From positions 1 through 35,231 of the forward strand of contig JAHILF010000030.1 in assembly GCA_018897105.1 (NCBI GenBank): a stretch of 35,231 nucleotides of DNA, given 5' to 3'. This document shows positions 13,400-35,014 of this stretch, piece after piece. This DNA comes from Pseudomonadota bacterium. Lineage in GTDB: Bacteria > Desulfobacterota > Desulfobulbia > Desulfobulbales > SURF-16. Position 1 is the stretch's first letter; each line of letters begins with the position of its first letter. Made by a program: the position numbers and the translations under genes. Below the pieces are notes generated by a model. The model was not told where the DNA came from, did not search any database, and was given only the letters and a program-made list of their open reading frames with translations.

Positions 13400-13879
13400 G
13401 TGAGTGAGACAGTCATTGTGAGTCAGTCAAGCCGCTTCAGAGGCAGGTCTGAACATGCGCTGGACGGAAAAGGGAGGCTGAATGTGCCGTCCCGTTTTCG
13501 TGAGGTGCTCCTGCGTGAATATGACGACCGGCTGCTGATTACCCCGCCATGGCGCACCTGTCTGCGCATCTATCCCCTACAGGAGTGGGAGCAAATGGAA
13601 GCCACTCTGCTGAGCAAGGAAAAAAAAGATCCCCAGTTTCAAAAGATGATCCGTTACCTGATCGGAGGATCGGAGGAGTGCCAGATCGATAAGAACGGCC
13701 GCATCATCCTGCCCATGCATCTGCGCAATCAGCTTGATCTGAAAAAAGATGTGGTGATGATGGGCATGGGACCGTTTTTTGAGATATGGGACAAGGATAC
13801 CTGGCAGGCGGAAAGCAGTATCACACCACAGGATTTTAATGAATTTGACTCGACCCTTCATGAACTAGGCCTTTTTTAA
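13400..13879 (+). CDS. mraZ: transcriptional regulator MraZ
   Basis: A 159-residue MraZ with two AbrB-like SpoVT halves. The first contains FRGRSEHALDGKGRLNVPSRFREVL; the second contains the matching DKNGRIILPMHLR. Each half carries the DxxGR and P-x-x-hR signature used for DNA binding by the ring-shaped oligomer. MraZ is the autoregulator at the head of dcw operons. The start is a GTG at 13400, seven bases after AGGGG; an ATG at 13393 opens only four codons. The N-terminus is about ten residues longer than usual before FRGR. The gene ends three bases before rsmH. Confidence 0.95.
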   Translation: MSETVIVSQSSRFRGRSEHALDGKGRLNVPSRFREVLLREYDDRLLITPPWRTCLRIYPLQEWEQMEATLLSKEKKDPQFQKMIRYLIGGSEECQIDKNGRIILPMHLRNQLDLKKDVVMMGMGPFFEIWDKDTWQAESSITPQDFNEFDSTLHELGLF

Positions 13880-13882
13880 CAT

Positions 13883-14776
13883 ATGCGGACAAAGCCGGTA
13901 CACCTGCCGGTCTTGCTGGATGAGGTAATCCACTACCTGGCTCCGCAGGATGGCGGCCTCTATGTGGATGGAAACCTGGGGATCGGCGGGCATAGCGGGG
14001 CGATTCTCGAGGCAAGCGGTCCCGGTGGTCGGGTGATAGGATTTGACTGGGATGAAGACGCCCTGGCCAGAGCCCGGGTCAATCTGGCCGGTTATCAGGG
14101 CAGAGTGGAGTTCGTCCGGCGCAATTTTGCCGAGATCAGTGAAGTTCTGCCTGATTTAGGCGTGGGCCGGGTTGACGGGTTGCTTCTTGATCTGGGGTTA
14201 TCGTCCCTGCAGTTGGATGTAAGCGGCCGGGGATTTACCTTTCAGGGTTCCGAACCCCTTGACATGCGCATGGATGTCAGAAGCATGGAAACAGCGGCAG
14301 ATTTGTTGAACCGGGCCAGCGAGCAGGAGCTGGCAGACATTTTCTACTTGTACGGAGAGGAGCGTCAGGCCAGGCGGATTGCGTCTTTTGTGGTTGACGT
14401 CCGCAGGAAGACCCCACTGGCGACGACTGATCAGTTGGTAAAGATTGTCGAAAACGCTGTTCCGCGCAGATTCTGGCCCAAAAAAATCCATGTTGCCACC
14501 AAGGTTTTCCAGGCACTGCGTATCGCGGTGAACCGGGAACTTGACAATCTTGAAAAAATTTTAGAGAGCGTGGCGGATATTGTTAAACCAGGAGGGCGTA
14601 TCTGTGTAATTTCTTTTCATTCCTTGGAGGATCGTCTGGTGAAGCGGACTTTTAGAAATAATCCTGCCCTGGAGCTGGTAACGGCAAAAGCAGTTACGGC
14701 GGCCGATGTTGAGATTCTGGCAAATCCGCGGTCAAGAAGCGCCAGGCTTCGCGTTGCCGCGGTGCGGGGGCAGTGA
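13883..14776 (+). CDS. rsmH: 16S rRNA m4C1402 N4-methyltransferase RsmH
   Basis: A 297-residue SAM-dependent methyltransferase (MraW) that modifies C1402 of 16S rRNA in the decoding centre. It starts with the typical HLPVLLDEVIHYLAP. The SAM-binding loop is VDGNLGIGGHSGAIL (family form CTLGGGGHS, so slightly divergent), followed by GFDWDEDAL and the catalytic-face motif LLLDLGLSSLQLD. The C-terminal region has ATKVFQALRIAVNREL and ISFHSLEDRLVKRTF, both highly conserved. Length is close to the family norm. Its stop overlaps the ftsL start (TGATG). Confidence 0.96.
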   Translation: MRTKPVHLPVLLDEVIHYLAPQDGGLYVDGNLGIGGHSGAILEASGPGGRVIGFDWDEDALARARVNLAGYQGRVEFVRRNFAEISEVLPDLGVGRVDGLLLDLGLSSLQLDVSGRGFTFQGSEPLDMRMDVRSMETAADLLNRASEQELADIFYLYGEERQARRIASFVVDVRRKTPLATTDQLVKIVENAVPRRFWPKKIHVATKVFQALRIAVNRELDNLEKILESVADIVKPGGRICVISFHSLEDRLVKRTFRNNPALELVTAKAVTAADVEILANPRSRSARLRVAAVRGQ

Positions 14777-15150
14777 TGGTCGCGCAATTCTCTTCACGCT
14801 ATAAGCCGAGCCTTGGCAGAAACCTGGGTAAAAAGGGGCCTGGCCAGAAATTGACCCTGGGAAGCTGGTTCTGGAAGTTGACCGGCGTGGTGATCATCAG
14901 TGCCACCCTGGCCGGTATGGCGGGCAGTTACTGGTTTTCCTGGAACATCAGACGTGGTCTGGACTCTTTGACCGGAGTGCAGGGGGAAAAGCATGCATTG
15001 CAGCAGGTGAGCAACAAGCTGCTGGGCCAGAAGGGGCAGCTGCTGGACAGAAAACGCATTGAAACCGTTGCTGCAGCAAAACTTGCACTTTACCCCACTG
15101 TGGAACAGAGTGCCGGGGGCGGGGTCATTGTACGGATTCCCGAACCATGA
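14776..15150 (+). CDS. ftsL: FtsL-like cell division protein
   Basis: A 124-residue bitopic protein at the ftsL position between rsmH and the ftsI homologue. A basic cytoplasmic tail of about 35 residues precedes one membrane segment (about residues 37-56, VVIISATLAGMAGSYWFSW) and a heptad-rich coiled region (LQQVSNKLLGQKGQLLDRKRI). FtsL pairs with FtsB and FtsQ to control the septal synthase. Sequence conservation in this family is poor, so the call rests on position, topology and size. The start is ATG 14776 inside a TGATG overlap; GTG at 14773 is an alternative. The end overlaps the next gene by ATGA. Confidence 0.8.
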   Translation: MVAQFSSRYKPSLGRNLGKKGPGQKLTLGSWFWKLTGVVIISATLAGMAGSYWFSWNIRRGLDSLTGVQGEKHALQQVSNKLLGQKGQLLDRKRIETVAAAKLALYPTVEQSAGGGVIVRIPEP

Positions 15151-17204
15151 AAGGCTACAAGGGACAGTTTGAGAGTAACTGGGGCAAAGGAGGGGGTTAC
15201 AGGCAGGAGGAGGAGAAGAGGAAAAGGATTGCCAGACTGCAGCTTCTGGCCGGCCTCGTGGTCATTCTCATCATGGCCGGGACCGCTTTCCTCTTTTTCC
15301 GTCAAAACACTCCAGGAGAAGGTGACCGAGCAAGAAACAAGACGGTCAGGGTAAATGAGGATGTGCGCCTTGCCATACCGCAGAAAAAGGAAGAAGTCAG
15401 GCGCAGAAATATTTATGACAGCAATCTTAATGAACTTTCCATCAGCTTTAAAGTTGACTCGATCTATGTCAAGCCCCTGGAGTTTGACAATATTGAAAAA
15501 ACGGTTTCGCTGCTGGCTGACGCCTTGGATCTTGATGAAAAAGATGTGCTCGAAGAACTGAAAACCCAGAGGACCTACAAATGGGTGGTGAAAAATATTT
15601 CTCCTGAGAAGGCAGCCGCGGTTGCGGCCTTAAATCTGCCAGGAGTTTATTTTTATGAGCAGGAACAGCGCTTTAATCCCAGCCGGGCGAACATGGGACA
15701 GATCATCGGCGAAGTAAAAGACGGCCACGGTCTGTCCGGTGTAGAACTCTTTTATGACAATCTGCTGCTTGGCGATTCGTCGGCACCGGATTCCGCAACC
15801 AGGGGTGGCGGCGGGAAAAGTCTGGTCCTGACCCTGGACGCCAAAATGCAATTGCTGCTGGAGCAGGAAATGACGACACTGCTTAATGACATTCGGCAGG
15901 ATGATCAGACCTCTGAAGCGATGACCGGTGTGAGTGCTCTGCTGATGGACGCCGACCGGGGCGAAGTGCTGGCCTACGTCAAACTGCCGTTTTTTTCCGC
16001 CACGAAATTGGGAACGGCAAACAGCTTTGAAGGCGGGGACCGGATGATGGCCGGCCATGTGGATCCAGGTGTACTGGCGCTCATTTTCAAGGATGCGTTA
16101 AACTTTGACCAGGCGCAGCAGATCATCGCCGCAGGCCAGACCGAAGAGGGGCAGATCCCGGTTGAAACGATCAAAACGCTGGCGCCGAGTATGATGAAAA
16201 AAATACGGGAAGGCCCGTCCAAATCACCATGGGTTCAACTGCGGGACGGGTCCTATGCATCTGACTGGCTGGCGGCTGCGCTTGATGATGAGCAGGCAGC
16301 GGCGGAAAACGGGCAGGTGGATTTTTCCGATTTCGGCAAAATCCTGGACAGAGTTGGTCAGTGCACACTCGACCTTCCCGGAGACAATGGCGGCAAGGAA
16401 ACGGGGATAGGGCTGCTGTGCGGGTATGCCGCACTGGTAAACGGCGGCAATGCCGTCACGCCGCACATTTTGCAGGCCACTCTAACAGCGACAGGCAAGC
16501 TGGAAGAATGGCCATGGTCGTCTCAGGAGAACAAGGTCATCGGCCCAGAAGCAAGCCGGGACCTTGTTCTTTTTTTACGTGAAAAGGCCAACCCGGCGGA
16601 TACCGTACTGGTGGGCGAAATTCTGCGGCCCCGGTGTGATATGGCGTCTACCGAGGGAAAGACTCCGCCTGCTGCAGAAGGAACCGAGCAAGCCCTTGCC
16701 GCGAGCGGAACCCCGGAGCAGGAAGCAAAACCGGACGTAGCGATTCTCCGGCATTGCGACGGGCTGGCCCTTGCCTCGGTAACGGTGAATAAGCCTGAAC
16801 TGGTGATGCTGGTTGTCATTGACGACGCCAGAATTGATCTGATGCAGGCTTCGCCGGTGAAGCAGCACACGGATGCCTTCCTGCAGGCCGCCCTCAAATT
16901 GCATCATCGGAAGGAGAACGGCAAGGCGGTTCCCCAGTCAATATCCAGGGCGGAAATCTTCCAGCGCTGGATACTGCGCAATAAGCAGTTGGGCTTTGAT
17001 GTGCTGGGGGGCAGAAAAAGTGATGCGGACACCATGATCGATGTGCGGGGCATGAGTATCCGCAAGGCTCTGCAGGAGCTGGATGGATTTGATGTCAAGG
17101 TGGTGATAGAAGGTTCGGGCATGATAAAAAGACAGCACCCCGATGCCGGCAGCAAGTTGAAAGAGGGGACACTGGTGATTTTAAAGGCTGAGACTAAACG
17201 GTAA
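15147..17204 (+). CDS. catalytically dead FtsI/PBP3-like protein with PASTA domain
   Basis: A 685-residue class B PBP homologue at the ftsI locus. A membrane anchor lies at about 32-51. The PBP dimerisation domain (84-205) keeps NIYDSNLNELSISFKVDSIY and IIGEVKDGHGLSGVELFYD. A transpeptidase-like domain (225-585) is recognisable from the LTLDAKMQ start, LLMDADRGEVLAYV and ELVMLVVIDDA. A PASTA domain occupies about 628-682. The catalytic motifs are gone: the PGSxxK box reads DPGVLALIFK, with V309 for Ser and L312 for Lys; no SxN is found before LDLPGD; and KTG is reduced to KTPP at 505-508. No stop or frameshift interrupts the frame, so it seems retained as a non-enzymatic division protein. Normal ftsI activity would have to come from elsewhere. 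Confidence 0.88.
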   Translation: MKGYKGQFESNWGKGGGYRQEEEKRKRIARLQLLAGLVVILIMAGTAFLFFRQNTPGEGDRARNKTVRVNEDVRLAIPQKKEEVRRRNIYDSNLNELSISFKVDSIYVKPLEFDNIEKTVSLLADALDLDEKDVLEELKTQRTYKWVVKNISPEKAAAVAALNLPGVYFYEQEQRFNPSRANMGQIIGEVKDGHGLSGVELFYDNLLLGDSSAPDSATRGGGGKSLVLTLDAKMQLLLEQEMTTLLNDIRQDDQTSEAMTGVSALLMDADRGEVLAYVKLPFFSATKLGTANSFEGGDRMMAGHVDPGVLALIFKDALNFDQAQQIIAAGQTEEGQIPVETIKTLAPSMMKKIREGPSKSPWVQLRDGSYASDWLAAALDDEQAAAENGQVDFSDFGKILDRVGQCTLDLPGDNGGKETGIGLLCGYAALVNGGNAVTPHILQATLTATGKLEEWPWSSQENKVIGPEASRDLVLFLREKANPADTVLVGEILRPRCDMASTEGKTPPAAEGTEQALAASGTPEQEAKPDVAILRHCDGLALASVTVNKPELVMLVVIDDARIDLMQASPVKQHTDAFLQAALKLHHRKENGKAVPQSISRAEIFQRWILRNKQLGFDVLGGRKSDADTMIDVRGMSIRKALQELDGFDVKVVIEGSGMIKRQHPDAGSKLKEGTLVILKAETKR

Positions 17205-17207
17205 TTC

Positions 17208-18803
17208 ATGGTACGGATGCGAAAAAAAAGACTGGGCGATCTGCTTGCCGCCGCTGAACTCCCCATCGTTTGTCTTGAGGGTACGCAGGATGTTGAGATC
17301 ACAGGTGTGACGGACGACTCGCGAAAGATCGTGCCGGGGATGCTTTTTGTCGCCGTACCAGGCGCTACGGTGGATGGTCACCGCTTTATCAATGATGCCG
17401 TGGCCAAAGGCTGTGCCGCGGTGCTGGCCTTCCGCGGCTATGCAGAAAAATGTGCCGTGCCGCTGATGAAAATTGCTGATACCGGCAGGGCTTTGGGATA
17501 TCTTGCCGCGGCTTTTTTTGATTTTCCCTGCCGCAGGATGAAGATGATCGGCATCACCGGCACCAACGGCAAGACCACCTGCACCTATCTGCTGGAGGCG
17601 ATGATCAGCCGGGCAGGCGGCATACCAGGCGTGATCGGTACGGTCAGTGTCCGCTACAAAGGTTACGAAACCCCAGCCGCACTTACCACCCCGCAACCGG
17701 TGGAGCTGCAACAGATTCTCGATCAGATGGTCGAGGCGGGGGTTACCCATGTTGCCATGGAGGTTTCCTCCCATGCCCTGGCCCAGCAGCGGATAAACGG
17801 TGTCTGGTTTGATGTGGCGCTCTTTACCAATATCAGCCGAGACCATCTGGATTTCCACGGCAATATGGAAAGCTATTTTGCCGAGAAGGAAAGGCTCTTT
17901 ACCTCTTATCTGAAAGGGGATGGCCAGGGGGTTATCGTGTTGGGTAACGGGGAAGGACAGGGTCAGCAGGGCGATGACTGGTGCGATCGGCTGAACCATG
18001 GTCTTGACAGGGGCAATCATGTCTGTATTTCCTGCGGCATCGGCAGAGGGCTGATCCAGGCCGGAAATTTCAGTTTCGATCTGCAGGGGATCAGGGCTGA
18101 GATCGTCACTCCCGAGGCACGGTTTGTGCTGGAAAGTCCGCTGGTGGGCGAATTCAACCTGCGGAACCTGCTGGGGGTTATCGGTTGCGGAATGGCGCTG
18201 GGCTATGATCTGCAGAGCAGCTGCCAGGGGGTGGCCGGGGTAACCGGCGTGCCGGGCAGACTGGAGAGAGTGTTGCCCGATGGGGACACGTCACGGGAAG
18301 GCGGAGCGGTGGCAACCGTCTTGGTTGACTACGCCCATACCCCGGACGCCCTGGAAAATGTACTGCTGACCTTGCGGGAGCTCAAACCTGCGCGGTTGAT
18401 TCTCGTGTTCGGCTGCGGCGGAGACCGGGACCGGGGCAAAAGGCCGCTGATGGGCGGAGTTGCGGCGCGGCTGGCCGATGTGCTGCTGGTCACCTCGGAT
18501 AATCCCCGCAGTGAGCCGCCGCAGCAGATCATGGCAGAGATCGAGGCAGGCATCAGGGAGGAAAAGCTGACAAAAGCAAAGGGTGCGCAGCTCATGCAGG
18601 CCCGGTCGGTCAAGGGGTATGACGTGATCGAGGAACGGGCTGAGGCAATCCGTATCGCCATTGGCGGCGCCGGAGCGGGGGATGTGGTGCTGATCAGCGG
18701 CAAGGGGCATGAGTGCTATCAGATTATCGGCAGCCGGAAGTTGTTTTTTGACGATCGACAACAGGCCAGAGAGCAGCTTAATATTGCCAGACAGGCAGCA
18801 TAG
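17208..18803 (+). CDS. murE: UDP-MurNAc-L-Ala-D-Glu:meso-diaminopimelate ligase
   Basis: A 531-residue Mur ligase that adds the third stem residue in the cytoplasm. The order is an N-terminal UDP-binding domain with GVTDDSRKIVPGMLFVAVPG, a central ATPase domain with P-loop GITGTNGKTTCTYL (about 115-130), and a C-terminal domain with DYAHTPDALENVL and GCGGDRDRGKR. The motif SDNPRSEPP selects meso-diaminopimelate, as in Gram-negatives. The chain is slightly longer than usual, with an extra Gly/Gln-rich segment near residues 240-275. It starts four bases after the pseudo-PBP with no strong ribosome binding site, so translation is probably coupled. Confidence 0.96.
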   Translation: MVRMRKKRLGDLLAAAELPIVCLEGTQDVEITGVTDDSRKIVPGMLFVAVPGATVDGHRFINDAVAKGCAAVLAFRGYAEKCAVPLMKIADTGRALGYLAAAFFDFPCRRMKMIGITGTNGKTTCTYLLEAMISRAGGIPGVIGTVSVRYKGYETPAALTTPQPVELQQILDQMVEAGVTHVAMEVSSHALAQQRINGVWFDVALFTNISRDHLDFHGNMESYFAEKERLFTSYLKGDGQGVIVLGNGEGQGQQGDDWCDRLNHGLDRGNHVCISCGIGRGLIQAGNFSFDLQGIRAEIVTPEARFVLESPLVGEFNLRNLLGVIGCGMALGYDLQSSCQGVAGVTGVPGRLERVLPDGDTSREGGAVATVLVDYAHTPDALENVLLTLRELKPARLILVFGCGGDRDRGKRPLMGGVAARLADVLLVTSDNPRSEPPQQIMAEIEAGIREEKLTKAKGAQLMQARSVKGYDVIEERAEAIRIAIGGAGAGDVVLISGKGHECYQIIGSRKLFFDDRQQAREQLNIARQAA

Positions 18804-18822
18804 GGGAAAAGGAGAAAGGGAG

Positions 18823-20313
18823 ATGGAACTGCTACGAAGCACGAAAAAAGAGTGCTGCCGACTTGCAGCCGGTCCGGCAACGACCGATTTCGGCTATGGG
18901 TTCAATACGGTGCAGGATCCCGTCTGGACCTTGAGTCAGGTGCTGCTGGCCACAGGAGGGCGTTTTGTCTGCGGGGCACCGGAGGCGAATTTCCGCTCCA
19001 TCTCAACGGATACGCGGACGCTTGAGCCGGGGGATCTCTTTGTTGCCCTGTCCGGCGAACGTTTTGACGGACGGGAGTTTGTCAAGGAGGCAGTCGCTAA
19101 GGGGGCTGCCGGCGTTATCGTCTCCAGCATAATGGAAGAAAAACTGCCCGTGCCGGTCATTTTAGTCGCTGACCCTCTGCAGGCTCTGGGCGATCTGGCT
19201 GCCTACCGACGGGCGGCCATGCCCAACCTGCAGGTCATCGCCCTTACCGGCAGCTCCGGCAAGACAACGGTCAAGGAGATGTGCGCCGCCATTCTGAAAG
19301 AGGAATACAATGTCCTGAAAACCGAAGGCAACTTAAACAACCTGATCGGTTTGCCGCTGACCCTGCTGCGGGTGGATGCCTGCCATGATGTGGCGGTGCT
19401 GGAAATGGGCATGAACCGGCCCGGGGAAATTGCCAGGATGACCGAAATCGCAGATCCGGACATCGCCTGCATCGTCAATATCCAGAGCGCCCATCTGGCC
19501 GGACTGCATACCATCGACGGTGTGGCCAGGGCCAAAGGCGAGCTGTTTAAGGGCGGCAAGTCCTGGGCCAAATTCTGTGTTAATAACGATGACAAGCGGG
19601 TAAGGGCTCTTGCCCGCAACTGCAGTCAGGAGCAGATAACATTCGGCCGGGACCGCAATGCTTTTGTGCGGGCAACCCATGTGCGGAACATGGGCGAGGA
19701 AGGGATGCTTTTCACCCTGCATGTGGGCAGCGAAAAGGTGCGAATTACAATCCGCAGCCTGGGCGAGCATAACATCGGCAACGCGCTGGCCGCGGCGGCC
19801 ATGGCCCACGCCGCCGGGGTAAAGGCCGAACAGATTGCCCAGGGGCTGATGAGCTTCACCCCCTATGATAAAAGGCTGCAGATGGAAACCATCGGCGGAC
19901 TCAAGATCATCAATGACAGCTATAACGCTAATCCGGCATCCATGCTGGCGGCGCTCGAGACGGTCCGGGCCATGAAGAAAAATAAAAAGAGCGTGGCCAT
20001 ACTGGGCGACATGCTCGAACTCGGCGAGAGCAGCGACTCGGCCCATCGCCGACTCGGTGAAACAGCAGCCTGCAAGGCATTTGATTATCTTTTTGCCTAT
20101 GGGCAGTTTGCCAGAAAGGTGGTGGAAGGGGCACTCGATGCCCGGATGACCATAAAACAGGCAAAACAAAAGGAGAACAAAGAGGATATCGTGGAGGCCA
20201 TTGTCAAGCTGATCGCCCTGGGTGAACTGGGAAACGGGGATCTGGTGCTGGTGAAAGGGTCACGGGGCATGCGCATGGAAACAATTATCGAGCAGTTCAG
20301 AAACAGGCTGTAG
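18823..20313 (+). CDS. murF: UDP-MurNAc-tripeptide:D-Ala-D-Ala ligase
   Basis: A 496-residue Mur ligase that adds D-Ala-D-Ala to the tripeptide. The N-terminal domain contains [24 protein letters not shown], the ATP site is [14 protein letters not shown], and the C-terminal part has [17 protein letters not shown] and the MurF-typical [13 protein letters not shown] 18823 follows AAGGAGAAAGGGAG, so the longer in-frame extension that overlaps murE is rejected. About 30 residues before [12 protein letters not shown] are extra compared with typical MurF. No ddl gene accompanies it in this cluster, so D-Ala-D-Ala must be made by an enzyme encoded elsewhere. Confidence 0.95.
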
Positions 20314-20323
20314 GCGGGCGTTA

Positions 20324-21403
20324 ATGCTTTATCATTTTCTCTATCCACTCCATAACCTTTACGGGGGCTTCAATGTCTTCCGCTACATCACCTTCAGATG
20401 TATCGGGGCGATTGTCACCGGTTTTTTGATTGCCATTGTGCTGGGTCCGTATTTCATCAGGCTGCTGCAGCGCAATCTGGTGGGACAGGTGGTGCGGGAA
20501 GACGGGCCGGCCAGCCACTTCAGTAAACGTGGTGTGCCCACCATGGGGGGGGTGCTGATTATTTCCTCGGTGGTCATTTCAACCCTGTTGTGGGTTGAGC
20601 TGAGCAACAAGTACGTCTGGCTGATACTGGCCATCACCATCTGGTACGGCGCCATCGGCGGTATTGACGACTGGCGGAAGATTAAGAAGAAAAACTCCAA
20701 GGGGTTGAGTGCCAAGGCAAAAATGGCGCTGCAGATCGCAGGAGTGGTTGTTGTCGGCGGTTTTTTACTGAATCAGCCGGGTTTTGATACCTCGCTGAGT
20801 TTTCCGTTTTTAAAGGACGTGAAACCGGATCTGGGAATTTTTTATATTTTTTTCATGGTGCTGGTAGTGGCCGGGGCCTCCAATGCGGTCAATCTGACGG
20901 ACGGACTGGATGGACTGGCCATCGGCCCCACGGTGGTGACCAGCGGCGTATATCTGCTTTTTTCCTATCTTGCCGGGCATGCGGGACTTGCCGCCTACCT
21001 GCAGATCCCTTTTGTGCCGGGTGCCGGGGAGGTAACGGTGTTCTGCGGTGCGTTGGCCGGGGCGAGTCTGGGATTTCTCTGGTTCAACGCCTACCCTGCC
21101 CAGGTGTTCATGGGTGATGTGGGCTCACTGGCCATCGGCGGAGCCCTGGGCGTGGTGGCGGTTATTATCAAGCAGGAGATTCTGCTGGTGCTGGTGGGCG
21201 GGATTTTTGTCATGGAGGCTATTTCCGTGATCCTGCAGGTGGGTTATTTCAAGATTTCCGGGGGCAAGAGGATCTTTCTCATGGCCCCCTTTCATCATCA
21301 TTTTGAAAAAAAAGGTTGGGTGGAACCGAAGGTGGTTGTCCGCTTCTGGATCGTGTCAATCATTCTCGGCCTGATGGCGCTTGCCACGCTGAAACTGCGG
21401 TGA
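20324..21403 (+). CDS. mraY: phospho-MurNAc-pentapeptide translocase
   Basis: A 359-residue polytopic membrane enzyme that transfers phospho-MurNAc-pentapeptide to undecaprenyl phosphate, making lipid I. About ten hydrophobic segments are visible. Conserved elements are TMGGVLII near the N-terminus, the DDW motif ([22 protein letters not shown]), the Mg-binding [33 protein letters not shown], and the C-terminal [11 protein letters not shown]. The start [25 protein letters not shown] is characteristic of proteobacterial MraY. Spacing is 10 bp to murF and 7 bp to murD. It is the only polytopic protein of the cluster, since ftsW is absent. Confidence 0.97.
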
Positions 21404-21410
21404 TCTTGGT

Positions 21411-22796
21411 ATGGTTGGCTTAAAAGAATTCATCACCTCTCCGGCATCCTATAAGACCCTTGTTGTGGGGTCGGGCAAGTCGGGATTTGCCGCGCTGAAG
21501 TTCCTGGATAAGCTGGGCTGCCGGGTGGCGCTCAGCGAAAAGGCCAAGGAGTTAGCCCTGGACGGCAAACTGCTGGAGTGGCTGAAGGAAAGGGATGTCT
21601 ACTATGAGACGGGGGGACATCGCAGGGAAACATTCCTCGATGCCGATCTCATAGTAGTCAGCCCCGGGGTGCCGCTGGACATTGACGAGCTTACCGCAGC
21701 CCGGCAGGCTGGTATTGAGATCGTTGGAGAGCTTGGGCTTGGTGCTGCTTATCTTCAGATACCAATTGTTGCCGTAACCGGCACGAACGGCAAAACCACG
21801 GTGACAAAACTGATTGGTGAATTGCTGCAAGGAGCTGGGAGAAAGGTGTTTGTCGGAGGAAACATTGGGACACCGCTGATGGATTACCTGCTGGGGGAGC
21901 AGGATGCAGAGATAGCGGTTCTGGAGGTAAGCAGTTACCAGCTTGATACGGCCGGCCAATTCCGGCCGGACGTGGCGGTGCTGCTGAATATCAGCCCGGA
22001 TCATCTGGACAGGTATGCATCCTATGATGATTATGCGGCAGCGAAAATGAAGATTTTCTCCTGTCAGCAGCCGGAAGACCTGGCCGTGGTCAATGCCGAC
22101 GATCAGGAGATCCTGCGCCTGTTGGATGCTGAGCCGATTGCCGCGAAAACACTGTGGTTCGGCAGGGAACTTGCCGGCCGGCCCGGTACGGTTATCGAAG
22201 GGGAAAAGATCGTCCTGAAAGGGATGTTTGCCCATGAGGAAAAATATGACCTGCCTGAGGGAATGCTGAAATCGCCGAATCGGGAAAATGCCATGGCGTC
22301 AATCCTGGCGACTCGGGTCATGGCCTGCCCGGATGAGGTGATCAACCGAGTGCTGGGGCAATTTCAGCGCCCTCCCCACCGGCTTTTCCGGGTAACCGAG
22401 ATCAACGGGGTGAGCTATTTTGATGATTCAAAGGCCACCAATGTCGGAGCGGTGCAGTCGGCGCTGGAGGGGATGAGCCAGCCGGTGATTCTCATTGCCG
22501 GCGGGCGTGACAAGGGGGGGGATTATCTCTATATGGCGGAAGGTGTGCGGGCCAGGGTAAAAAAAATGGTGCTGATCGGCGAGGCCAGAGAAAAAATGGC
22601 TAAAGCCTTTGAGGGGATAACCAGCATCGAGATGGCGGACAGTCTGGAAGAGGCGGTGCTCAAGGCGGCACGGAGCGCACAGGAGGGTGATGCGGTTCTA
22701 TTGTCCCCGGCCTGCGCCAGTTTTGATATGTTTAAGAGCTATGCCGACCGGGGGGAGAGGTTTCAACGGGCTGTCTGGAAGCTGATGAACTCGTAA
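21411..22796 (+). CDS. murD: UDP-MurNAc-L-alanine:D-glutamate ligase
   Basis: A 461-residue Mur ligase that adds D-Glu to UDP-MurNAc-L-Ala. The N-terminal Rossmann-like domain begins LVVGSGKSGFAALKFL; the ATP loop is AVTGTNGKTTVTKLIGELL, followed by GGNIGTPL and the EVSSYQLD motif specific to MurD. The C-terminal domain has PPHRLFRV, FDDSKATNVGAVQSAL and LIAGGRDKGGD. Length and motifs are normal. After its stop the expected ftsW is missing; a 297-bp gap with a 61-residue gene leads to murG. Confidence 0.96.
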   Translation: MVGLKEFITSPASYKTLVVGSGKSGFAALKFLDKLGCRVALSEKAKELALDGKLLEWLKERDVYYETGGHRRETFLDADLIVVSPGVPLDIDELTAARQAGIEIVGELGLGAAYLQIPIVAVTGTNGKTTVTKLIGELLQGAGRKVFVGGNIGTPLMDYLLGEQDAEIAVLEVSSYQLDTAGQFRPDVAVLLNISPDHLDRYASYDDYAAAKMKIFSCQQPEDLAVVNADDQEILRLLDAEPIAAKTLWFGRELAGRPGTVIEGEKIVLKGMFAHEEKYDLPEGMLKSPNRENAMASILATRVMACPDEVINRVLGQFQRPPHRLFRVTEINGVSYFDDSKATNVGAVQSALEGMSQPVILIAGGRDKGGDYLYMAEGVRARVKKMVLIGEAREKMAKAFEGITSIEMADSLEEAVLKAARSAQEGDAVLLSPACASFDMFKSYADRGERFQRAVWKLMNS

Positions 22797-22894
22797 TATT
22801 CCCTGACGCCAAATTTGTATGACGATAAATCAGGAAATTATCGTGCACGGTACGGCTGTCGAAGGGTTGTTCTGATGAGAAAGTGAAAGTGAAA

Positions 22895-23080
22895 ATGGAA
22901 AAGATATGTTGCCGCTGCAAGCGAAACGAACAGGCAGGCAGGTGGGTTGCCCTGAAGGACGCGGACACAAGTACCTATTCCTATGGGTTTTGTCCGAACT
23001 GCTACCAGGAAACCCTGGCTGAGATAAAAATGGCGTCACCCAAGTACAGAAGCAGGAAGACGCCGGAAATGACAGTATAA
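22895..23080 (+). CDS. small Cys-pair (zinc-ribbon-like) protein at the ftsW position
   Basis: A 61-residue basic protein of unknown function, MEKICCRCKRNEQAGRW followed later by GFCPNCYQ. The pairs CxxC (with an extra adjacent Cys) and CPNC, about 30 residues apart, could bind one zinc or iron. The C-terminal tail is basic and probably disordered. ATG 22895 has only a purine-rich stretch (GAGAAAGTGAAAGTGAAA) upstream; GTG codons at 22883 and 22889 are possible earlier starts. The gene is oriented with the cluster and ends 13 bp before murG. No known division protein is recognised. Similar short rubredoxin/zinc-ribbon proteins are often response-linked or nucleic-acid-binding, but nothing here decides it. 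Confidence 0.7.
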   Translation: MEKICCRCKRNEQAGRWVALKDADTSTYSYGFCPNCYQETLAEIKMASPKYRSRKTPEMTV

Positions 23081-23093
23081 TCCGTCAGGATTT

Positions 23094-24188
23094 ATGGGAA
23101 ACAAGGAAATCAGGTTGATTGTCAGCGGAGGCGGCACGGGCGGACATCTTTTCCCGGGGATTGCAGTGGCTGAGGCCTTTCTGGATCAGTATCCGGGCAG
23201 TCGGGTGCTTTTTATCGGCACCGGACGACAGACCGATGCACGGGTGCTGGCCAACAGAAAATTTGAAACCGCAACCATCAGCAGCCAGGGGCTCAAGGGC
23301 AAAAGTATGGGGCAGCGACTCTCAGCCTTGCTGCAGCTGCCGCTGTCCACCTTTTCCGCCATGGGGCTGTTGAGAAGGTTCCGGCCGCAGCTGGTTCTCG
23401 GGGTGGGGGGCTATGTCACCGGGCCGGTGCTGCTTGCCGCAAAGATGATGGGAATCGCCACCTGTATCCACGAGCAGAACTCGGTGCCGGGCATGGCCAA
23501 CCGGAAGCTGGGGAGACTTGTTGACCGGATCTTTCTCTCCATTCCCGGAAGTGAACGCTATTTTGCCCCAGGCAAATGGGTTATGACCGGCAATCCGCTG
23601 CGCCGGGAACTGACTGCCGCGGCAGAAAAGAAGAGGGGACAAAAGGAAGGACTGACGCTGGTGGTGCTTGGCGGCAGTCTCGGCGCGCACAGGGTGAACA
23701 CGCTCATGGTTGGCGCCATGGGAATACTGAAAAACACGACGGCTCATCTGCGGGTCATCCACCAGACCGGCAGGGATGATGAACAGATGGTAGCCGGCAG
23801 ATATAAAGAGCTGGGCATAAAGGCGGAAGTGGCGGCATTTTTTAACAATATGGCTGAGCTGTACAGCCAGGCCGATCTGGTTGTTTCCCGGGCGGGAGCC
23901 ACCACACTGGCAGAGATCACGGCCTTTGGCCTGCCCATGATTTTGATCCCGTATCCCTTTGCCGCAGATGACCATCAGCGCAAAAACGGTGAATATCTGG
24001 TGCAGGGCGGCGCGGCGCTGATGTTCACCCAGGAGGAGTTGACGGAAAAAAGACTGGCTGAGGAAATCAGCACTCTCCTGACCGATGAAAAGCGGTGTTT
24101 GCAGATGGGGCAGGCCGCCAGGAGGCTGGCCAGGCCCGATGCCACCAAGACGATTGTGGCACAGTGCGAGAAGCTGATGTTTGCCTGA
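23094..24188 (+). CDS. murG: UDP-GlcNAc:lipid I N-acetylglucosaminyltransferase
   Basis: A 364-residue GT28 glycosyltransferase that turns lipid I into lipid II on the inner face of the membrane. The glycine-rich N-terminal motif is VSGGGTGGHLFPGIAVAEAF, the second G-loop is VLGVGGYVTGPVLLAAK, and the conserved acceptor-site region IHEQNSVPGMANRKLG follows. The C-terminal UDP-GlcNAc site includes VLGGSLGAHRVN, VSRAGATTLAEITAFGLPMILIPYPFAADDHQ. Length is normal. ATG 23094 lies 13 bp after the small Cys-pair gene. No irregularity is seen. Confidence 0.97.
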   Translation: MGNKEIRLIVSGGGTGGHLFPGIAVAEAFLDQYPGSRVLFIGTGRQTDARVLANRKFETATISSQGLKGKSMGQRLSALLQLPLSTFSAMGLLRRFRPQLVLGVGGYVTGPVLLAAKMMGIATCIHEQNSVPGMANRKLGRLVDRIFLSIPGSERYFAPGKWVMTGNPLRRELTAAAEKKRGQKEGLTLVVLGGSLGAHRVNTLMVGAMGILKNTTAHLRVIHQTGRDDEQMVAGRYKELGIKAEVAAFFNNMAELYSQADLVVSRAGATTLAEITAFGLPMILIPYPFAADDHQRKNGEYLVQGGAALMFTQEELTEKRLAEEISTLLTDEKRCLQMGQAARRLARPDATKTIVAQCEKLMFA

Positions 24189-24250: not shown

Positions 24251-25636
24251 TTGTATAAAAAAACAAAACATATTCATTTTGTCGGTATCGGCGGCATCGG
24301 CATGAGCGGTATCGCCGAGCTGCTGCTCAATCTGGGCTACAGTGTCAGTGGCTCCGACCTGAAGCAGAGCGATATCACCAGGCGGCTGCAGAGCCTGGGC
24401 GGTAAGGTTTATCAGGGCCATAACGGAACTTGGGTAGGCAATGCGGATGTGGTGGTTATCTCCTCGGCGGTCAAGGAGAACAATCCCGAGGTGGTTGCCG
24501 CACGGGAGGCCTTTATCCCGGTGATTCCACGGGCCGAGATGCTGGCCGAACTCATGCGCCTGAAAAAATACGGCATCGCCATTGCCGGCAGTCACGGCAA
24601 GACCTCGACCACCTCGCTGGTGGGCTGGCTGCTGGCCGAGGCCGGATTTGATCCCACGGTGGTGATCGGCGGTAAGGTGAACAGCCTGGGCACCAATGCC
24701 AAACTGGGCGAAGGGGAGTTTCTGGTGGCTGAGGCGGATGAAAGCGACGGTTCCTTTCTCCAGCTGTCACCGGTAATTGAGGTGGTAACCAATATTGATC
24801 TGGAGCATCTTGACTACTACCGGGATATTGATGAGATCAAGGAGGTTTTCCTTCAGTTTATCAACAAGATCCCATTTTATGGCGCTGTGGTGCTCTGCCT
24901 TGATGATGACAATATCGCTTCACTGCTGCCGCGCATCAAAAAAAGGGTGATTACCTACGGGCTGGTCACCCAGGCGGATATCAGCGGCCGACTGTTGAAA
25001 GCAGAAGGTCTGAACACCAGTTTTGAGGTCTGCCGGGGTTCCGAGGTACTTGGCGAGATCATGATCAATTCCCCGGGCCGACATAACGTGCTGAACAGTC
25101 TCGCGGCGGTGGCCGTGGCACTGGAACTTGAAATTCCCTTTGCCAGGATTGCCTCGGCACTGGCGACATTTACCGGGGTGCAGAGGCGTCTGCAGATCAA
25201 GGGTGAGGCGCGGGGTATCACGGTGATCGATGACTATGGCCATCATCCCACGGAGATCAGGGCAACGCTTGCGGCCATCAGAAGCGCCTGGCCGAGCCGC
25301 CGCCTGCTGGCCATGTTCCAGCCGCATCGCTACACCCGCACCCAGGGGTTGTTCAAGGAGTTCTGCACCGCTTTTCATGATGCGGATATTCTGATTTTGA
25401 CCGAGATCTATCCAGCCAGTGAAAGTCCGATCGAGGGCGTGACGGCGGAGAATCTCATGGTCGGCATCAAGGAGCATGGCCAGCGCCAGGTGTTTCTTGT
25501 CCCGGGAGTGGATGATCTGGCAGGGATGGTGCACCCCATGCTGGAGGAGGGGGATATTGTGCTTACCCTGGGGGCCGGCGATATTCTGCGGGCCGGCGAA
25601 CAGCTTTTATCCGCTTTAGGGGCCGTTGCGCAATGA
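24251..25636 (+). CDS. murC: UDP-MurNAc:L-alanine ligase
   Basis: A 461-residue Mur ligase catalysing the first amino acid addition. It begins [19 protein letters not shown], the family's Rossmann-like start; the ATP loop is [16 protein letters not shown]; the acceptor-side [12 protein letters not shown] and [10 protein letters not shown], and the C-terminal [10 protein letters not shown] and FQPHRYTRT motifs are all present. The start codon appears to be TTG at 24251, because the conserved N-terminus begins there and no ATG lies upstream in frame before a stop. The next ATG would remove the nucleotide-binding loop. The ribosome binding site is weak. The 62-bp gap to murG and this poor start suggest low translation. 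Confidence 0.95.
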
Positions 25637-25728: not shown

Positions 25729-26748
25729 ATGGAGACTGGAGGGATGTATGAGGCTGCAGCGTATACCGGGAAATGGGACCAGATGATGTCCCCGCCGGGT
25801 GGATCAGACTCACCACTGCCTGCGTGGGCGTCTGCCTTGCAGCAGGCGATGGCTGGCCACCCCGCAGGAGATATAGTCTGGCATGGTTCTTTGGCCAAGT
25901 ACACCACCTTTAACGTCGGTGGCAGGGCCGAGGCCATCGTTTTTCCCACGGGCCGCGATGAGCTGTCCCAGCTGATCCGCAGCCTGCACGGCTTGGATGT
26001 GCCCTGGGTCATTCTCGGCCGGGGCAGCAATGTGGTGATTGCCGATGCAGGACTCAAGGGCGTGGTCATCGTGCTCGGACGTGAATTCGGGGAGATTGAG
26101 CAGGTAGAGGATGCGGCGGGCAGCATCGTGGTCAGGGTTGAGGCCGGCTGCAGTCTGGCAAAACTGGTGAGCTGGGCAGTGGAACGGGGACTGGCCGGGC
26201 TGGAATTTGCGGCAGGCATACCCGGCAGTGTAGGCGGGGCAATCGTTATGAATGCCGGGGCCTGGCAGCGGGAGATGAAAGACGTACTGCTCCGGGTCAT
26301 CATCATGGATGGTCAGGGTGCCATCTCTGCCAGAGAGGTTGCTGCCATGCATTTTGCCTACCGGACCTGGGGGGAGATGCAGGGGGCAATCGCCCTGGAA
26401 GGGTTTTTTCGGCTAAAAAAAGACAACCCGGTCCTGCTCAGGGAAATGTGCAAAGAATACCGGCAGCGCCGCAAGATGCGGCAGCCGCAGAATATGGCCA
26501 GCGGTGGTTCCTTTTTCAAGAATCCGCCGGGCGGTAAAACAGCCGGACAGTTGATTGATCAGGCCGGGCTGAAGGGGTGCCTGGTCGGCGGGGCCATGGT
26601 GTCAACAGTGCATGCCAACTTTATCGTCAATACCGGCAGTGCCACGGCCCGGGACATCATTGACCTGATGGGGATGGTGCAGAAAGTCGTCTATGAGAAA
26701 TACGGCATCGCGCTGGAGCCTGAAGTGAAGATTCTGGGCCTGGAATGA
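25729..26748 (+). CDS. murB: UDP-N-acetylenolpyruvoylglucosamine reductase
   Basis: A FAD-dependent reductase that makes UDP-MurNAc. Up to 339 residues. The FAD domain begins SLAKYTTFNVGGRAEAIVFP and continues LGRGSNVVIADAGLKGVVI and EFAAGIPGSVGGAIVMNAGA. The C-terminal domain has the catalytic Ser in GGSFFKNPPG and the final Glu in LEPEVKILG. The N-terminal 45 residues are an unconserved extension, so the real start is uncertain: ATG 25729 has a poor ribosome site, and ATG codons at 25744 or 25783 are alternatives. It overlaps ftsQ by ATGA. In many relatives ddl sits between murB and ftsQ; it is missing here. Confidence 0.93.
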   Translation: METGGMYEAAAYTGKWDQMMSPPGGSDSPLPAWASALQQAMAGHPAGDIVWHGSLAKYTTFNVGGRAEAIVFPTGRDELSQLIRSLHGLDVPWVILGRGSNVVIADAGLKGVVIVLGREFGEIEQVEDAAGSIVVRVEAGCSLAKLVSWAVERGLAGLEFAAGIPGSVGGAIVMNAGAWQREMKDVLLRVIIMDGQGAISAREVAAMHFAYRTWGEMQGAIALEGFFRLKKDNPVLLREMCKEYRQRRKMRQPQNMASGGSFFKNPPGGKTAGQLIDQAGLKGCLVGGAMVSTVHANFIVNTGSATARDIIDLMGMVQKVVYEKYGIALEPEVKILGLE

Positions 26749-27590
26749 AAAGGAAGAAAAAAGGACTCAAGGTTTATCGGGCCAGTAATCAAAGCTGGTT
26801 CGGCGACCAGCTGCTGAAAATGATCAGCATCAGCTTCGCCATCTTGATTGCGGGGGGCATTATCGTCTTCATCGCTTACCAGGGGCTGAGCCGGTCGGTT
26901 TTTTTTCAGGTTGAAGAGGTTGATATTAAGGGCTGCGTCAGGACAACACCCAATGAGATTTTTTCCTGGAGCGGGCTGGATGTGAAAACCAATCTGTGGG
27001 CGGTGCGCATCGGGCGGATCAGGAAGAAACTGGAAACCCAGGACTGGATAGCTACCACAGAGGTGAAAAGGAATTGGCCGAACAAGCTGGCCATTGTCGT
27101 CCAAGAGCGCAAGCCCATTGCTCTGTTGAGTCTGAAATCCGGACTCTATTATGTTGACCGCGGGGGTGTTGTCTTCGCGCAGGTGCTGCCGGTTGATGAC
27201 CGGGATTATCCCGTCATTACGGGCGTAGAGATAGATAATGTGCCGGGGGTCAAGGAAGAGGCGCAGTTGCAGGAGCCCCTTGATTTTATCATCTTCGGGG
27301 AAAAGGGGACAGTAGCCTTGCCCAAACAGAATATTTCGGAAATACATCTGACCTCAAAGGGGGATCTGGTCCTCTTCATGGCGGACCATGCCTTTCCGGT
27401 TTATCTCGGCAGGGGAGATATGAAGACAAAATATTATCGATTAAGCACGGTGCTTTCCTGGCTTTACCGTAAACAGAAGTATGACTTCGCCGTTGCCATT
27501 GATATGAATTACCTGGCCGGCTATGACATGGACGCGACAAGCGGTGGGAAGGTGCTGGTTCGCATGAGTGATTATAAGGCGGTTCATTGA
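26745..27590 (+). CDS. ftsQ: cell division protein FtsQ
   Basis: A 281-residue bitopic protein. A basic cytoplasmic tail of about 25 residues is followed by one membrane segment (about 28-47, ISISFAILIAGGIIVFIAYQ). The periplasmic POTRA domain starts at VFFQVEEVDIKGCVRTTPNEIF and reaches the conserved RNWPNKLAIVVQERKPIALL; the FtsQ beta domain (YYVDRGGVVFAQ onward) follows. FtsQ links FtsL/FtsB to the divisome. The start overlaps the murB stop (ATGA), and ftsA begins 8 bp after its own stop. Length is typical for the phylum. Confidence 0.92.
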   Translation: MKRKKKGLKVYRASNQSWFGDQLLKMISISFAILIAGGIIVFIAYQGLSRSVFFQVEEVDIKGCVRTTPNEIFSWSGLDVKTNLWAVRIGRIRKKLETQDWIATTEVKRNWPNKLAIVVQERKPIALLSLKSGLYYVDRGGVVFAQVLPVDDRDYPVITGVEIDNVPGVKEEAQLQEPLDFIIFGEKGTVALPKQNISEIHLTSKGDLVLFMADHAFPVYLGRGDMKTKYYRLSTVLSWLYRKQKYDFAVAIDMNYLAGYDMDATSGGKVLVRMSDYKAVH

Positions 27591-27598
27591 GGAAACGT

Positions 27599-28831
27599 AT
27601 GGCAAATGTGGAAAGAGGGCAGTTGATTGTCGGACTTGATATCGGGACGACCAAGATATGTGCCGTAGTCGGAGAGGTGATCGAGAACCGGGTGGATATC
27701 ATCGGCGTGGGTAGCCATCCTTCCATCGGTCTGCGTAAAGGCGTGGTTGTCAATATCGAAAGCACGGTCAACTCCATCAAAAAGGCGGTGGGCGAAGCGG
27801 AAATGATGGCGGGCTGCAATATCACTTCTGTTTATGTGGGCATTGCCGGCAGTCATGTCACCGGGCAGAACAGCGATGGGAACATCGCCGTAAAGAACCG
27901 GGAGATCCGCCAGGAGGAAATCGACCGAGTGGTGGAGAATGCCAAGGCCGTTCCCATGGGGCAGGACCAGGAGGTTATCCATGTCATGCCCCAGGAGTTC
28001 AAGGTGGACGGCCAGGGCGGCATTCAGGATCCACTGGGCATGACCGGCGTGCGTCTGGAAGCAAAGGTGCATATCGTCACCGGATCGGTAACCGCGGTGC
28101 ATAACATCATCAAGTGCTGCAACCGGGCCGGGCTCGAGGTGGATGATGTGGTGCTGGAGCCCATCGCTTCGGCCGAGGCGGTGCTCACCCCGGAAGAGCG
28201 GGAGCTCGGCGTGGCCCTGATTGATATCGGCGGCGGCACCTCCGATCTGGCTGTTTTCGCTGAAAACTGTATCCAGCGCACCTATGTGCTGGGCATAGGC
28301 GGCAACAATCTGACCAACGATCTGTCCATCGGCCTGCGCACCCCGCTGAAGGCGGCGGAACAGCTCAAGGAAAAATACGGCTGCGCCATATCTTCCATGA
28401 TCGATAAGGATCAGGCCATCGAGGTGCCCAGCGTCGGCGGCAGGAAATCGCGCAAACTTTCCCAGCGGGTCATGGGGGAAATCCTTGAACCGCGGGTGGA
28501 GGAGATGCTGACTCTGATCAATTATGAGCTGGTGAATTCCGGGGTGAAAAATCTGGTCAATGCCGGGGTGGTGCTGACCGGCGGCACCTCAATGCTGGTC
28601 CATATTCTTGATCTGGCCGAGCAGATTTTTGATCTGCCGGTGCGTATCGGCTATCCGCGCAATATCGGCGGGGTGACGGATATTGTCAATACCCCGCAAT
28701 GCGCCACCGGGGTGGGTCTGGTTATTTATGGCATGAAGAGCGAGTCGGAAAGAGGCTTCCGGGAACGGGGAGCAAAGGGCCTCGGCGGCCTGGCCAAGAA
28801 GATTAAAGGGCTGTTCGGTAAATTAATGTAG
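27599..28831 (+). CDS. ftsA: cell division protein FtsA
   Basis: A 410-residue actin-like protein that anchors FtsZ to the membrane. The phosphate-1 loop is VGLDIGTTKICAVVGE, subdomain 1C follows, and the second nucleotide motif is LIDIGGGTSDLAVF; VVLTGGTSML is the adenosine motif. The C-terminus GLGGLAKKIKGLFGKLM forms the amphipathic membrane-targeting helix. ATG 27599 follows GAGGAAAC, so the in-frame TTG at 27587, which overlaps ftsQ, is not preferred. An 88-bp gap leads to ftsZ. Confidence 0.97.
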   Translation: MANVERGQLIVGLDIGTTKICAVVGEVIENRVDIIGVGSHPSIGLRKGVVVNIESTVNSIKKAVGEAEMMAGCNITSVYVGIAGSHVTGQNSDGNIAVKNREIRQEEIDRVVENAKAVPMGQDQEVIHVMPQEFKVDGQGGIQDPLGMTGVRLEAKVHIVTGSVTAVHNIIKCCNRAGLEVDDVVLEPIASAEAVLTPEERELGVALIDIGGGTSDLAVFAENCIQRTYVLGIGGNNLTNDLSIGLRTPLKAAEQLKEKYGCAISSMIDKDQAIEVPSVGGRKSRKLSQRVMGEILEPRVEEMLTLINYELVNSGVKNLVNAGVVLTGGTSMLVHILDLAEQIFDLPVRIGYPRNIGGVTDIVNTPQCATGVGLVIYGMKSESERGFRERGAKGLGGLAKKIKGLFGKLM

Positions 28832-28919: not shown

Positions 28920-30095
28920 ATGGAGTTTCAAATGGCGGAAGACACATCACGGGTAAAGATCAGGGTCTTCGGTATTGGCGGCGGTGGCGGAAACGCCGTA
29001 AATACCATGGTGGAAAGCAAGCTCCAGGGGGTGGAATTCATAGCGGCCAATACGGATCTGCAGGTGCTGGAACATTCCAAGGCAGACGTGCGGCTCCAGC
29101 TCGGCCCCACAGTCAGCAAGGGTTTCGGCGCGGGCGCCAATCCTGAAAAAGGGCGTGAATCAGCCGAAGAAAGTATTGATGAAATCAGGAATTGCCTGAA
29201 AGGCAGTGACATGGTCTTCATCACCGCAGGGCTCGGCGGTGGCACCGGCACCGGCGCTGCACCCATCGTGGCCAAGGTGAGCAAGGAGCTTGGCGCGCTT
29301 ACCGTGGCGGTGGTGACCAAGCCCTTTGTCTTCGAGGGCAAGGCTCGCATGAAAAATGCCGAGATCGGCTGGGAACAGCTCAAAAAGCATGTGGATACCA
29401 TTATCACCATTCCCAATGACCGTATCCTCTCCCTGACTCAGAAAAAAACCCGCTTTCTGGACGGCATGAAAATGGCCGATAATGTTCTGGTGCAGGCGGT
29501 GAAAGGCATAACCGATCTGATTAACCTGCCGGGTTACATCAATCCGGACTTTGCCGATGTGTGCACCGTGATGAATGAAATGGGACCCGCCCTGATGGGC
29601 GCCGGAGTAGGCATCGGGGAAAACAGGGCCATCGAAGCGGTCAATATGGCCATTGCCAGTCCGCTGCTGCAGGATATCAGCATTGACGGGGCCAAGGGTG
29701 TGCTGGTCAACATCTCCGCCCGGGAAGACACCCTGACCATGGCCGAGGTGACCGAGGCCACCAGCAAGATTTACGAAGAGGTGCATGATGAGGCCAATAT
29801 CATCCTGGGCGTTATCTTTGATGATTCCCTGGGAGAGGAACTGCGGGTAACAGTGGTTGCCACGGGTATCCGGGTGGCTGAGGAACTGGAGCCCCTGCCT
29901 GATAAGGTGACTCCTCTGCCGAAAAAGGATCCGAAAGCTCTCGGCGGCACCCTGCCCTTCAGCCAGGGGAACAAGCTGCCCCATGTGGCAAACGGCGGCA
30001 GCTACCCTGACCCCAGGAACAAGTATAGCACTGTCAGAATTTTTGATGAAGACAAACTGGATGAGCCGACCTTTATCCGGCGTAATGAAAATTGA
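28920..30095 (+). CDS. ftsZ: cell division protein FtsZ
   Basis: A 391-residue tubulin-like GTPase that forms the Z ring. The tubulin signature GGGTGTG is at 106-112, the N-terminal G-loop is FGIGGGGGNAVNTM, and the T7 catalytic loop is in LPGYINPDFADV. After the globular domain (ending near residue 320) comes a linker and the C-terminal peptide KLDEPTFIRR, which binds FtsA and other partners. ATG 28920 follows AGGAAGGGGGG; ATG 28932 is an alternative. The gene closes the cluster; what follows is a repeat-rich spacer. Confidence 0.98.
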   Translation: MEFQMAEDTSRVKIRVFGIGGGGGNAVNTMVESKLQGVEFIAANTDLQVLEHSKADVRLQLGPTVSKGFGAGANPEKGRESAEESIDEIRNCLKGSDMVFITAGLGGGTGTGAAPIVAKVSKELGALTVAVVTKPFVFEGKARMKNAEIGWEQLKKHVDTIITIPNDRILSLTQKKTRFLDGMKMADNVLVQAVKGITDLINLPGYINPDFADVCTVMNEMGPALMGAGVGIGENRAIEAVNMAIASPLLQDISIDGAKGVLVNISAREDTLTMAEVTEATSKIYEEVHDEANIILGVIFDDSLGEELRVTVVATGIRVAEELEPLPDKVTPLPKKDPKALGGTLPFSQGNKLPHVANGGSYPDPRNKYSTVRIFDEDKLDEPTFIRRNEN

Positions 30096-34947: not shown

Positions 34948-35014
34948 CAAGTATCCTCAAAAGATATGTGTATTATGTTGGAAAGATAGAGACTGCATGA
35001 CACATATTAAATAA

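Follow-up and report, generated by a model that had tools for sequence, protein, structure and literature searches.

Absence of FtsW from Desulfobulbales and retention of an FtsI pseudoenzyme in the dcw cluster, as read from genome sequences

FtsW is absent from the bacterium analysed here and, as far as the genomes show, from the whole order Desulfobulbales, and the FtsI encoded in the dcw cluster of the order is, judging from its sequence, a maintained pseudoenzyme whose pedestal and PASTA tail are conserved under purifying selection. Since FtsW is missing and FtsI survives as a dead enzyme, another septal enzyme is expected, and Desulfobulbales probably build the dividing wall with an enzyme other than FtsW-FtsI. 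Division without this pair was already known; new here are its occurrence in another phylum and the conserved FtsI pseudoenzyme. An earlier note on this DNA had remarked on a missing ftsW beside a dead FtsI and had proposed joint relocation or replacement of the septal synthase. Its observation was upheld and reaches further than it had claimed: the joint loss was right, relocation was wrong, and replacement was an incomplete account.

The window, that is, the whole stretch of 35,231 nucleotides that was analysed, is contig C151 of a 4.95-Mb draft genome with a completeness score of 100%. Its dcw genes are arranged in the order mraZ, rsmH, an FtsL-like ORF, ftsI, murE, murF, mraY, murD, murG, murC, murB, ftsQ, ftsA, and ftsZ, as follows:

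13400..13879, + strand: mraZ
13883..14776, + strand: rsmH (mraW), by Pfam
14773..15150, + strand: FtsL-like small protein, 12.8 bits to PF04999 (cut-off 22.9), named mainly by position
15147..17204, + strand: FtsI pseudoenzyme, with PBP_dimer pedestal, degenerate transpeptidase-like region and C-terminal PASTA; SxxK and KTG lost
17208..18803, + strand: murE, three Mur ligase domains, name from cluster position
18709..20313, + strand: murF, name from cluster position; the listed ORF overlaps murE
20324..21403, + strand: mraY, by Pfam
21411..22796, + strand: murD, by Pfam
22797..23093, + strand: murD-murG gap, the ftsW slot of relatives, without a SEDS gene
22883..23080, + strand: 65-aa ORF with CCxC...CPxC, in neither a Pfam nor an NCBIfam family
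23094..24188, + strand: murG, by Pfam
24251..25636, + strand: murC
25729..26748, + strand: murB
26745..27590, + strand: ftsQ
27587..28831, + strand: ftsA
28920..30095, + strand: ftsZ

The true start of murF probably lies downstream of the start of the listed ORF. At the position of murE and murF, loci L017, L018, L021, and L027 and some RodA-only loci (see below) carry one ORF of about 1,000 codons, which is probably a MurE-MurF fusion present in several families. Outside the dcw region, the left end of the window holds an IS701-type transposase gene (475-1917; match under the curated cut-off), immediately followed by a type I-C Cas1 gene (1956-2987), and a phage-integrase family gene lies downstream of the dcw region at the right end (33547-34950, - strand).

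According to the earlier note, only 297 bp separate murD from murG, no SEDS protein is encoded in the window, and this gap is the usual place of ftsW. All of this could be confirmed: the last base of murD is 22796 and the first of murG 23094, both genes being verified by Pfam; a PF01098 profile search gave zero matches on the window's contig; and in ten relatives with a dcw-encoded FtsW the gene was located directly before murG in all ten and directly after murD in nine, the tenth being G163, where murD was not found. Across the order, the spacing between murD and murG had a median of 183.5 bp in the 70 distinct genomes with both genes on one stretch (duplicate rows L014 = G016 and L015 = G117 were counted once; the named loci L012-L016, from the window's genus, are contigs of G090, G101, G016, G117, and G074, and L015, whose FtsI frame is apparently interrupted, was left out of A1). 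It exceeded 900 bp only in G132 (L119), where an insert of 2.5 kb stretches it to 2,526 bp and neither of the two ORFs inside (383 and 388 aa) is SEDS; passages of a comparative study also report an insertion near this site in a cable bacterium (PMC7873302). Since the spacing is short across these 70 genomes, the absence at the slot is not the local gap of one assembly. The small ORF at 22883-23080, overlooked by the earlier note, codes for a 65-aa protein that its CCxC...CPxC pattern marks as probably zinc-binding; its dN/dS was 0.15 and 0.33, and 35 of the 70 distinct order genomes have a relative of it at this murD-murG position. As a shrunken FtsW it was rejected, being a short cysteine-motif protein without a relative in the other 35.

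A single SEDS match (PF01098) was found in the 4.95-Mb genome, on a contig other than the window's. It is RodA: it scored 419.1 bits with the NCBIfam equivalog TIGR02210 (cut-off 336.7) and 300.9 bits with the NCBIfam FtsW model, under the cut-off of 337.5, and its gene is located in the operon mreB-mreC-mreD-mrdA-rodA. Apart from MrdA and the dcw FtsI, the genome encodes no class B PBP with a PBP_dimer domain, and RodA and MrdA are its only SEDS and its only motif-complete class B PBP. SEDS matches were obtained in 141 of 146 Desulfobulbales genomes and in the other five there was none: 136 had exactly one, and five had two or three that resemble pieces of one gene (in G077, a complete gene and a remnant of 26 codons), two full-length SEDS genes being found in none of the 146. 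The number of PBP_dimer proteins per genome was two in 131, one in 12, three in two (G012 and G088, the FtsI frame of the latter being split), and none in one; where positions were compared, the stronger match adjoins the SEDS gene. The single-contig genomes G004, G066, G111, G132, and G143 each have one SEDS and two PBP_dimer proteins. In a tree of 54 SEDS proteins, 10 dcw-slot FtsW were separated from 44 others by a split with support of 100, and all 15 order SEDS were placed on the RodA side.

Four genomes of the order, G040, G087, G135, and G137, gave no SEDS, MrdA-like PBP_dimer or MreC match; here the elongasome operon may have been lost or contigs may be missing. G135, of 2.0 Mb, is small for its genus and had no GT51 match either. 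In the single-contig genome G011, rodA is frameshifted at about 7100-7115 of L236, beside a run of six C.

The reading of FtsI as dead was also borne out. The window FtsI occupies the expected dcw position before murE and has the PBP_dimer pedestal, without the catalytic SxxK and KTG; it scored 14.1 bits against Pfam Transpeptidase (cut-off 22.1), whereas two FtsW-bearing relatives scored about 284 bits. Among named genomes, relatives of it occur at 72% identity in a Desulfurivibrio sp. and at 62% in a Desulfobulbaceae bacterium, both on contigs of genomes from the window's genus, and the NCBI taxonomy places Desulfurivibrio within Desulfobulbales. FtsI was read in 107 of the 146 order genomes, as 98 proteins of at least 590 aa and nine short or weak pieces, and the catalytic Ser and Lys were present together at the aligned columns in none of the 107. 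Residues were found at these columns in 106, with Ser alone in two and Lys alone in four; the catalytic site is not really covered in two of the 107, one being a gap row and the other a fragment from G005 that probably starts past it. All 14 controls (10 FtsI of FtsW-bearing relatives and four MrdA) contained PG[ST]xxK and K[TS]GT. A loose motif search of the 107 order FtsI gave [PA]G[ST]xxK in 15, [KHR][TS]G[TSA] in 18, and both in three, and these matches, as far as inspected, lie away from the active site.

Mean pairwise identity of FtsI in the order was 0.36 for the pedestal, 0.23 for the transpeptidase, and 0.47 for PASTA, versus 0.40, 0.50, and 0.37, respectively, in the 10 FtsW-bearing relatives. 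The constraint is inverted, the transpeptidase being the least conserved part in the order and the most conserved part in the FtsW-bearing relatives. By profile, the pedestal was present in each of the 98 proteins of 590 aa or longer from the order and the PASTA tail in 97, the exception being cut by a contig end. In comparisons with two same-genus genomes, the dN/dS of the window FtsI was 0.21 and 0.27 (0.08 and 0.12 in the pedestal, 0.12 and 0.19 in PASTA, and 0.22 and 0.28 in the transpeptidase-like region), and that of the neighbouring Mur, RsmH, and FtsL genes ranged from 0.08 to 0.24; in one comparison the whole FtsI was slightly above its neighbours (0.27 versus 0.08-0.22). Since dN/dS shows purifying selection, FtsI is not a decaying gene.

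Among 296 phylum genomes that were at least 90% complete, most of those outside the order had two SEDS. From about 58 single-SEDS genomes of the phylum, 31 were examined: 26 had a RodA-type gene (25 beside mrdA, and G425 alone) and five had a dcw FtsW. Fourteen families were RodA-only (f28, f35, f39, f40, f59, f65, f66, f72, f75, f76, f86, f91, f100, and f108), f59 by SEDS search alone with its dcw cluster not located; the single genomes G332 and G336 add to these but could not be judged. The 20 RodA-only dcw clusters that were read come from thirteen families, with that of G316 cut at murD, and no FtsW match was obtained in the 19 with both murD and murG visible. None of 19 FtsI remnants from these families had both catalytic motifs. 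The remnants measure 643 aa in f28, 513-563 aa in f66, f72, f76, f86, f91, f100, and f108, 451-455 aa in f75, 410 aa in f40, 324-379 aa in f39, and 248-318 aa in f35 and f65, and some of them still exceed the Transpeptidase cut-off though without the motifs (102 bits in f28, 65 in f100, 39 in f66, and 26 in f75). By profile, the pedestal was recognised in 13 of the 19, a PASTA-like tail in 13, both in seven, and neither in none: PASTA is lost in f66, f91, f108, f40, and one of f39, and no pedestal was recognised in any of the four of f35/f65, in one of f39, or in one of f75. In G253 no FtsI remnant was recognised by profile, and only a sub-threshold PBP_dimer match (18.2 bits) was seen in a 334-aa frame.

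FtsI has been pared down by different routes, and no periplasmic part is common to all lineages. Because the remnants keep different parts, the function of FtsI cannot need the same domain in every lineage. An anchor with a PASTA tail was considered as the part that is always kept and was rejected, PASTA being absent in six of the 19 remnants. The reverse case is found in f29, f33, f94, and G207 (five genomes), which share with the RodA-only genomes the single SEDS but keep FtsW, without RodA, together with a motif-complete dcw FtsI. Rhizobiales likewise have FtsW without RodA.

The connection that the earlier note had drawn between the loss of FtsW and the loss of FtsI catalysis was upheld, the two states agreeing in all 54 dcw loci. 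FtsI was motif-complete in 10 of 10 ftsW-bearing loci and in none of the 44 without ftsW, in which 43 FtsI proteins or remnants were recognised; SxxK and KTG occurred together in none of the 43, with the protein of G005 assessed from the C-terminal half alone. Among the readable loci, neither an active FtsI without ftsW nor the reverse was found; G332, G336, and G205 were not judged in this search, the last two having no rsmH match and dcw clusters that were not located. G332, with a motif-complete FtsI and one SEDS, was not counted as a counterexample, since there are unread bases at its ftsW slot.

Both losses were mapped, as the earlier note had proposed, on a tree of MraY, MurD, MurG, and MurC. 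It covered 54 of the 57 loci prepared, leaving out G316 and G332, for which at most two of the four genes were available, and G001, for which there was none. On this tree the presence of FtsW needs two changes, a loss ahead of the order and most RodA-only relatives and a further loss in f35+f65, and a quick search under a mixture model gave the same two. A single clade of all FtsW-less loci was not rejected (AU test, p 0.461), all these trees being quick searches with weak deep branches. The loss of FtsW is older than the order Desulfobulbales. Because the 44 losses represent only one or two events, the coupling is consistent and statistically unproven.

Our main reading, to which we assign a probability of about 50%, is that a class A PBP would make septal peptidoglycan, with the FtsI pseudoenzyme as its non-catalytic partner. 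An ancestor predating Desulfobulbales would have lost FtsW outright, with no move of the gene, and the transpeptidase activity of FtsI would have been lost with it; FtsI would have been kept as an anchored pseudoenzyme, with pedestal and PASTA tail, in an otherwise complete dcw cluster. A class A PBP, for example the 670-aa bifunctional PBP1A-family protein encoded on contig C124, would make the septum, the FtsI pseudoenzyme would recruit or activate it there, and RodA-MrdA would stay with MreBCD for elongation. The C124 protein scored 653.5 bits against PBP_1a_fam (cut-off 508.75) and has complete glycosyltransferase and transpeptidase motifs (EDARFFQHPG, PGSAFK, SRN, and KTGT), and the genome has six GT51 matches; by analogy, action at the septum is a candidate role for such proteins. 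The analogy is with Clostridioides difficile, in which, according to the parts of the reports drawn on here, the septal synthase is a class A PBP (PMC10693644) that the class B PBP3 supports non-catalytically (PMC12539705).

In the genomes tested, GT51 was found in 21 of 22 from the order, in all 14 RodA-only relatives, and in all 19 two-SEDS relatives. The 21 order genomes had two to six matches each, and the exception, G135, also lacks SEDS and MrdA. Exactly one GT51 was found in nine of the 14 RodA-only relatives and in four of the 19 two-SEDS relatives; since the latter group has such cases too, having only one class A PBP does not set FtsW-less genomes apart. The nine sole class A PBPs all contained the GT51 and KTG motifs, and eight of them PG[ST]xxK; the class A PBP of G404 was not recognised by the motif pattern. 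More tentatively, and with somewhat less confidence than for the main reading, we propose a SEDS-free Gram-negative divisome for Desulfobulbales and the RodA-only families, in which a class A PBP would build the septum and FtsI would be a dedicated non-catalytic activator or scaffold, differently pared in each lineage; within this proposal, and no more firmly held, some FtsI would be little beyond an anchor and a PASTA-like tail and others an anchor and a pedestal. As a separate observation, open frames with GT51 of about 1,100-1,180 aa occur in many of the 22 genomes of the order that were searched for it, and in the large class A PBP at L238:3918-7280 (G000 C56) the transpeptidase domain is matched in two separated halves, as if it carried an insert.

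In the main alternative, RodA-MrdA might build the septum as well as the side wall, and the FtsI pseudoenzyme would be an adaptor bringing RodA to the division ring; we regard this as possible, if on the unlikely side. RodA is the sole SEDS of the genome and MrdA its sole motif-complete class B PBP, SEDS are near-universal in the order (141/146) next to exactly two PBP_dimer proteins in 131/146, and the pedestal, the part that touches the SEDS partner in known SEDS-bPBP pairs, is kept in 98/98 of the order FtsI of at least 590 aa. The pedestal was, however, not recognised in six of the 19 remnants outside the order, including all four of f35/f65. Two further observations, which weigh lightly, also speak against this alternative: the 99%-complete draft G040 lacks SEDS, MrdA, and MreC together, and the frameshifted rodA belongs to G011, which is the sister of G040 in the sampled set. 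They suggest that RodA can be lost and, if real, favour a class A PBP; missing contigs or a sequencing error are possible in these cases. Co-occurrence cannot separate the two enzymes, because both are about equally widespread in the order; the C. difficile precedent favours a class A PBP over RodA-MrdA.

It is improbable that these genomes still encode an FtsW so divergent that the SEDS profile misses it. This explanation would fit four RodA-only relatives of f35/f65, in which the slot codes for a polytopic membrane protein of 261-264 aa without a Pfam family match in the three of the four that were scanned:

L224:5585-6379, - strand: f35/f65 slot protein
L225:5620-6395, - strand: f35/f65 slot protein
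L226:5192-5983, - strand: f35/f65 slot protein
L227:7806-8594, + strand: f35/f65 slot protein

However, hhalign detected no resemblance of this protein to FtsW (probability 1.7, with 1.1 for the MraY control), and within the order the slot leaves too little room, at the median given above. In addition, profile matches of SEDS from the phylum are strong (E of 1e-90 or better for the majority, near 1e-66 for the weakest families), and the order FtsI is without the activity that would partner FtsW. Relocation of FtsW and an active FtsI to a separate locus, as the earlier note had envisaged, is very improbable, with nothing found in its favour: the 100%-complete genome has one SEDS and no third PBP_dimer protein, the only SEDS-PBP pair found by searching the whole genome is the elongasome RodA-MrdA and not a displaced FtsW-FtsI, and the five single-contig genomes of the order show the same count. 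Relocation fell away in these searches of the genome and the order, and replacement is inferred from the loss of FtsW and of FtsI catalysis. That ftsW is merely absent from the assemblies is scarcely credible, for although many genomes are drafts and G332, outside the order, shows how unread bases can hide the slot, in 70 order genomes a single stretch carries both murD and murG, the gap in 69 of them being too small for ftsW, and single-contig genomes lack it too.

On the reading that we prefer, with a class A PBP at the septum and FtsI as its partner, as on any other, a whole sulfur-cycle order that includes the cable bacteria, together with fourteen further families, is without FtsW according to the genome searches, and the active site is lost in the dcw-encoded FtsI proteins that were read from the order and the related families. 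This makes the minimum septum-building set and the non-catalytic role of FtsI testable in culturable bacteria, the differently shortened FtsI remnants being a natural deletion series for that role. No report of the FtsI pseudoenzyme, its order-wide extent, or the shortened remnants was found among titles and abstract openings of the open-licence literature, which is not proof of absence.

The FtsW-FtsI pair is described in passages of PMC10693644 as universally conserved for septal peptidoglycan. Compared with that canonical synthase, the Desulfobulbales system is alike in dcw gene order, the FtsI pedestal, FtsQ, FtsA, and FtsZ, and unlike it in having no FtsW and an FtsI without catalytic motifs. 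Within the same order, a 2021 study of four Desulfobulbaceae genomes, two of cable bacteria and two of Desulfobulbus, reported, in the passages drawn on here, that zipA, ftsW, and ftsN are absent and that mre, pbpA, and rodA lie in one cluster (PMC7873302); those passages treat FtsI as the active septal enzyme and mention neither its lost active site nor a wider extent beyond the four genomes. The closest functional parallel is C. difficile. As far as the parts of the reports cited above go, both have no functional FtsW-FtsI pair in ordinary division (for Desulfobulbales, to judge from sequence), and both keep RodA and its bPBP for elongation and have a class A PBP. They differ in that C. difficile is without FtsA, whereas ftsA is present in the window, and in that C. 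difficile keeps its dcw SEDS and bPBP genes for sporulation, whereas here the dcw SEDS is gone and the bPBP has lost its active site. C. difficile has one class A PBP, in contrast to the two to six GT51 matches in 21 of 22 order genomes, and the septal class A PBP, which we infer for Desulfobulbales, has been demonstrated in C. difficile.
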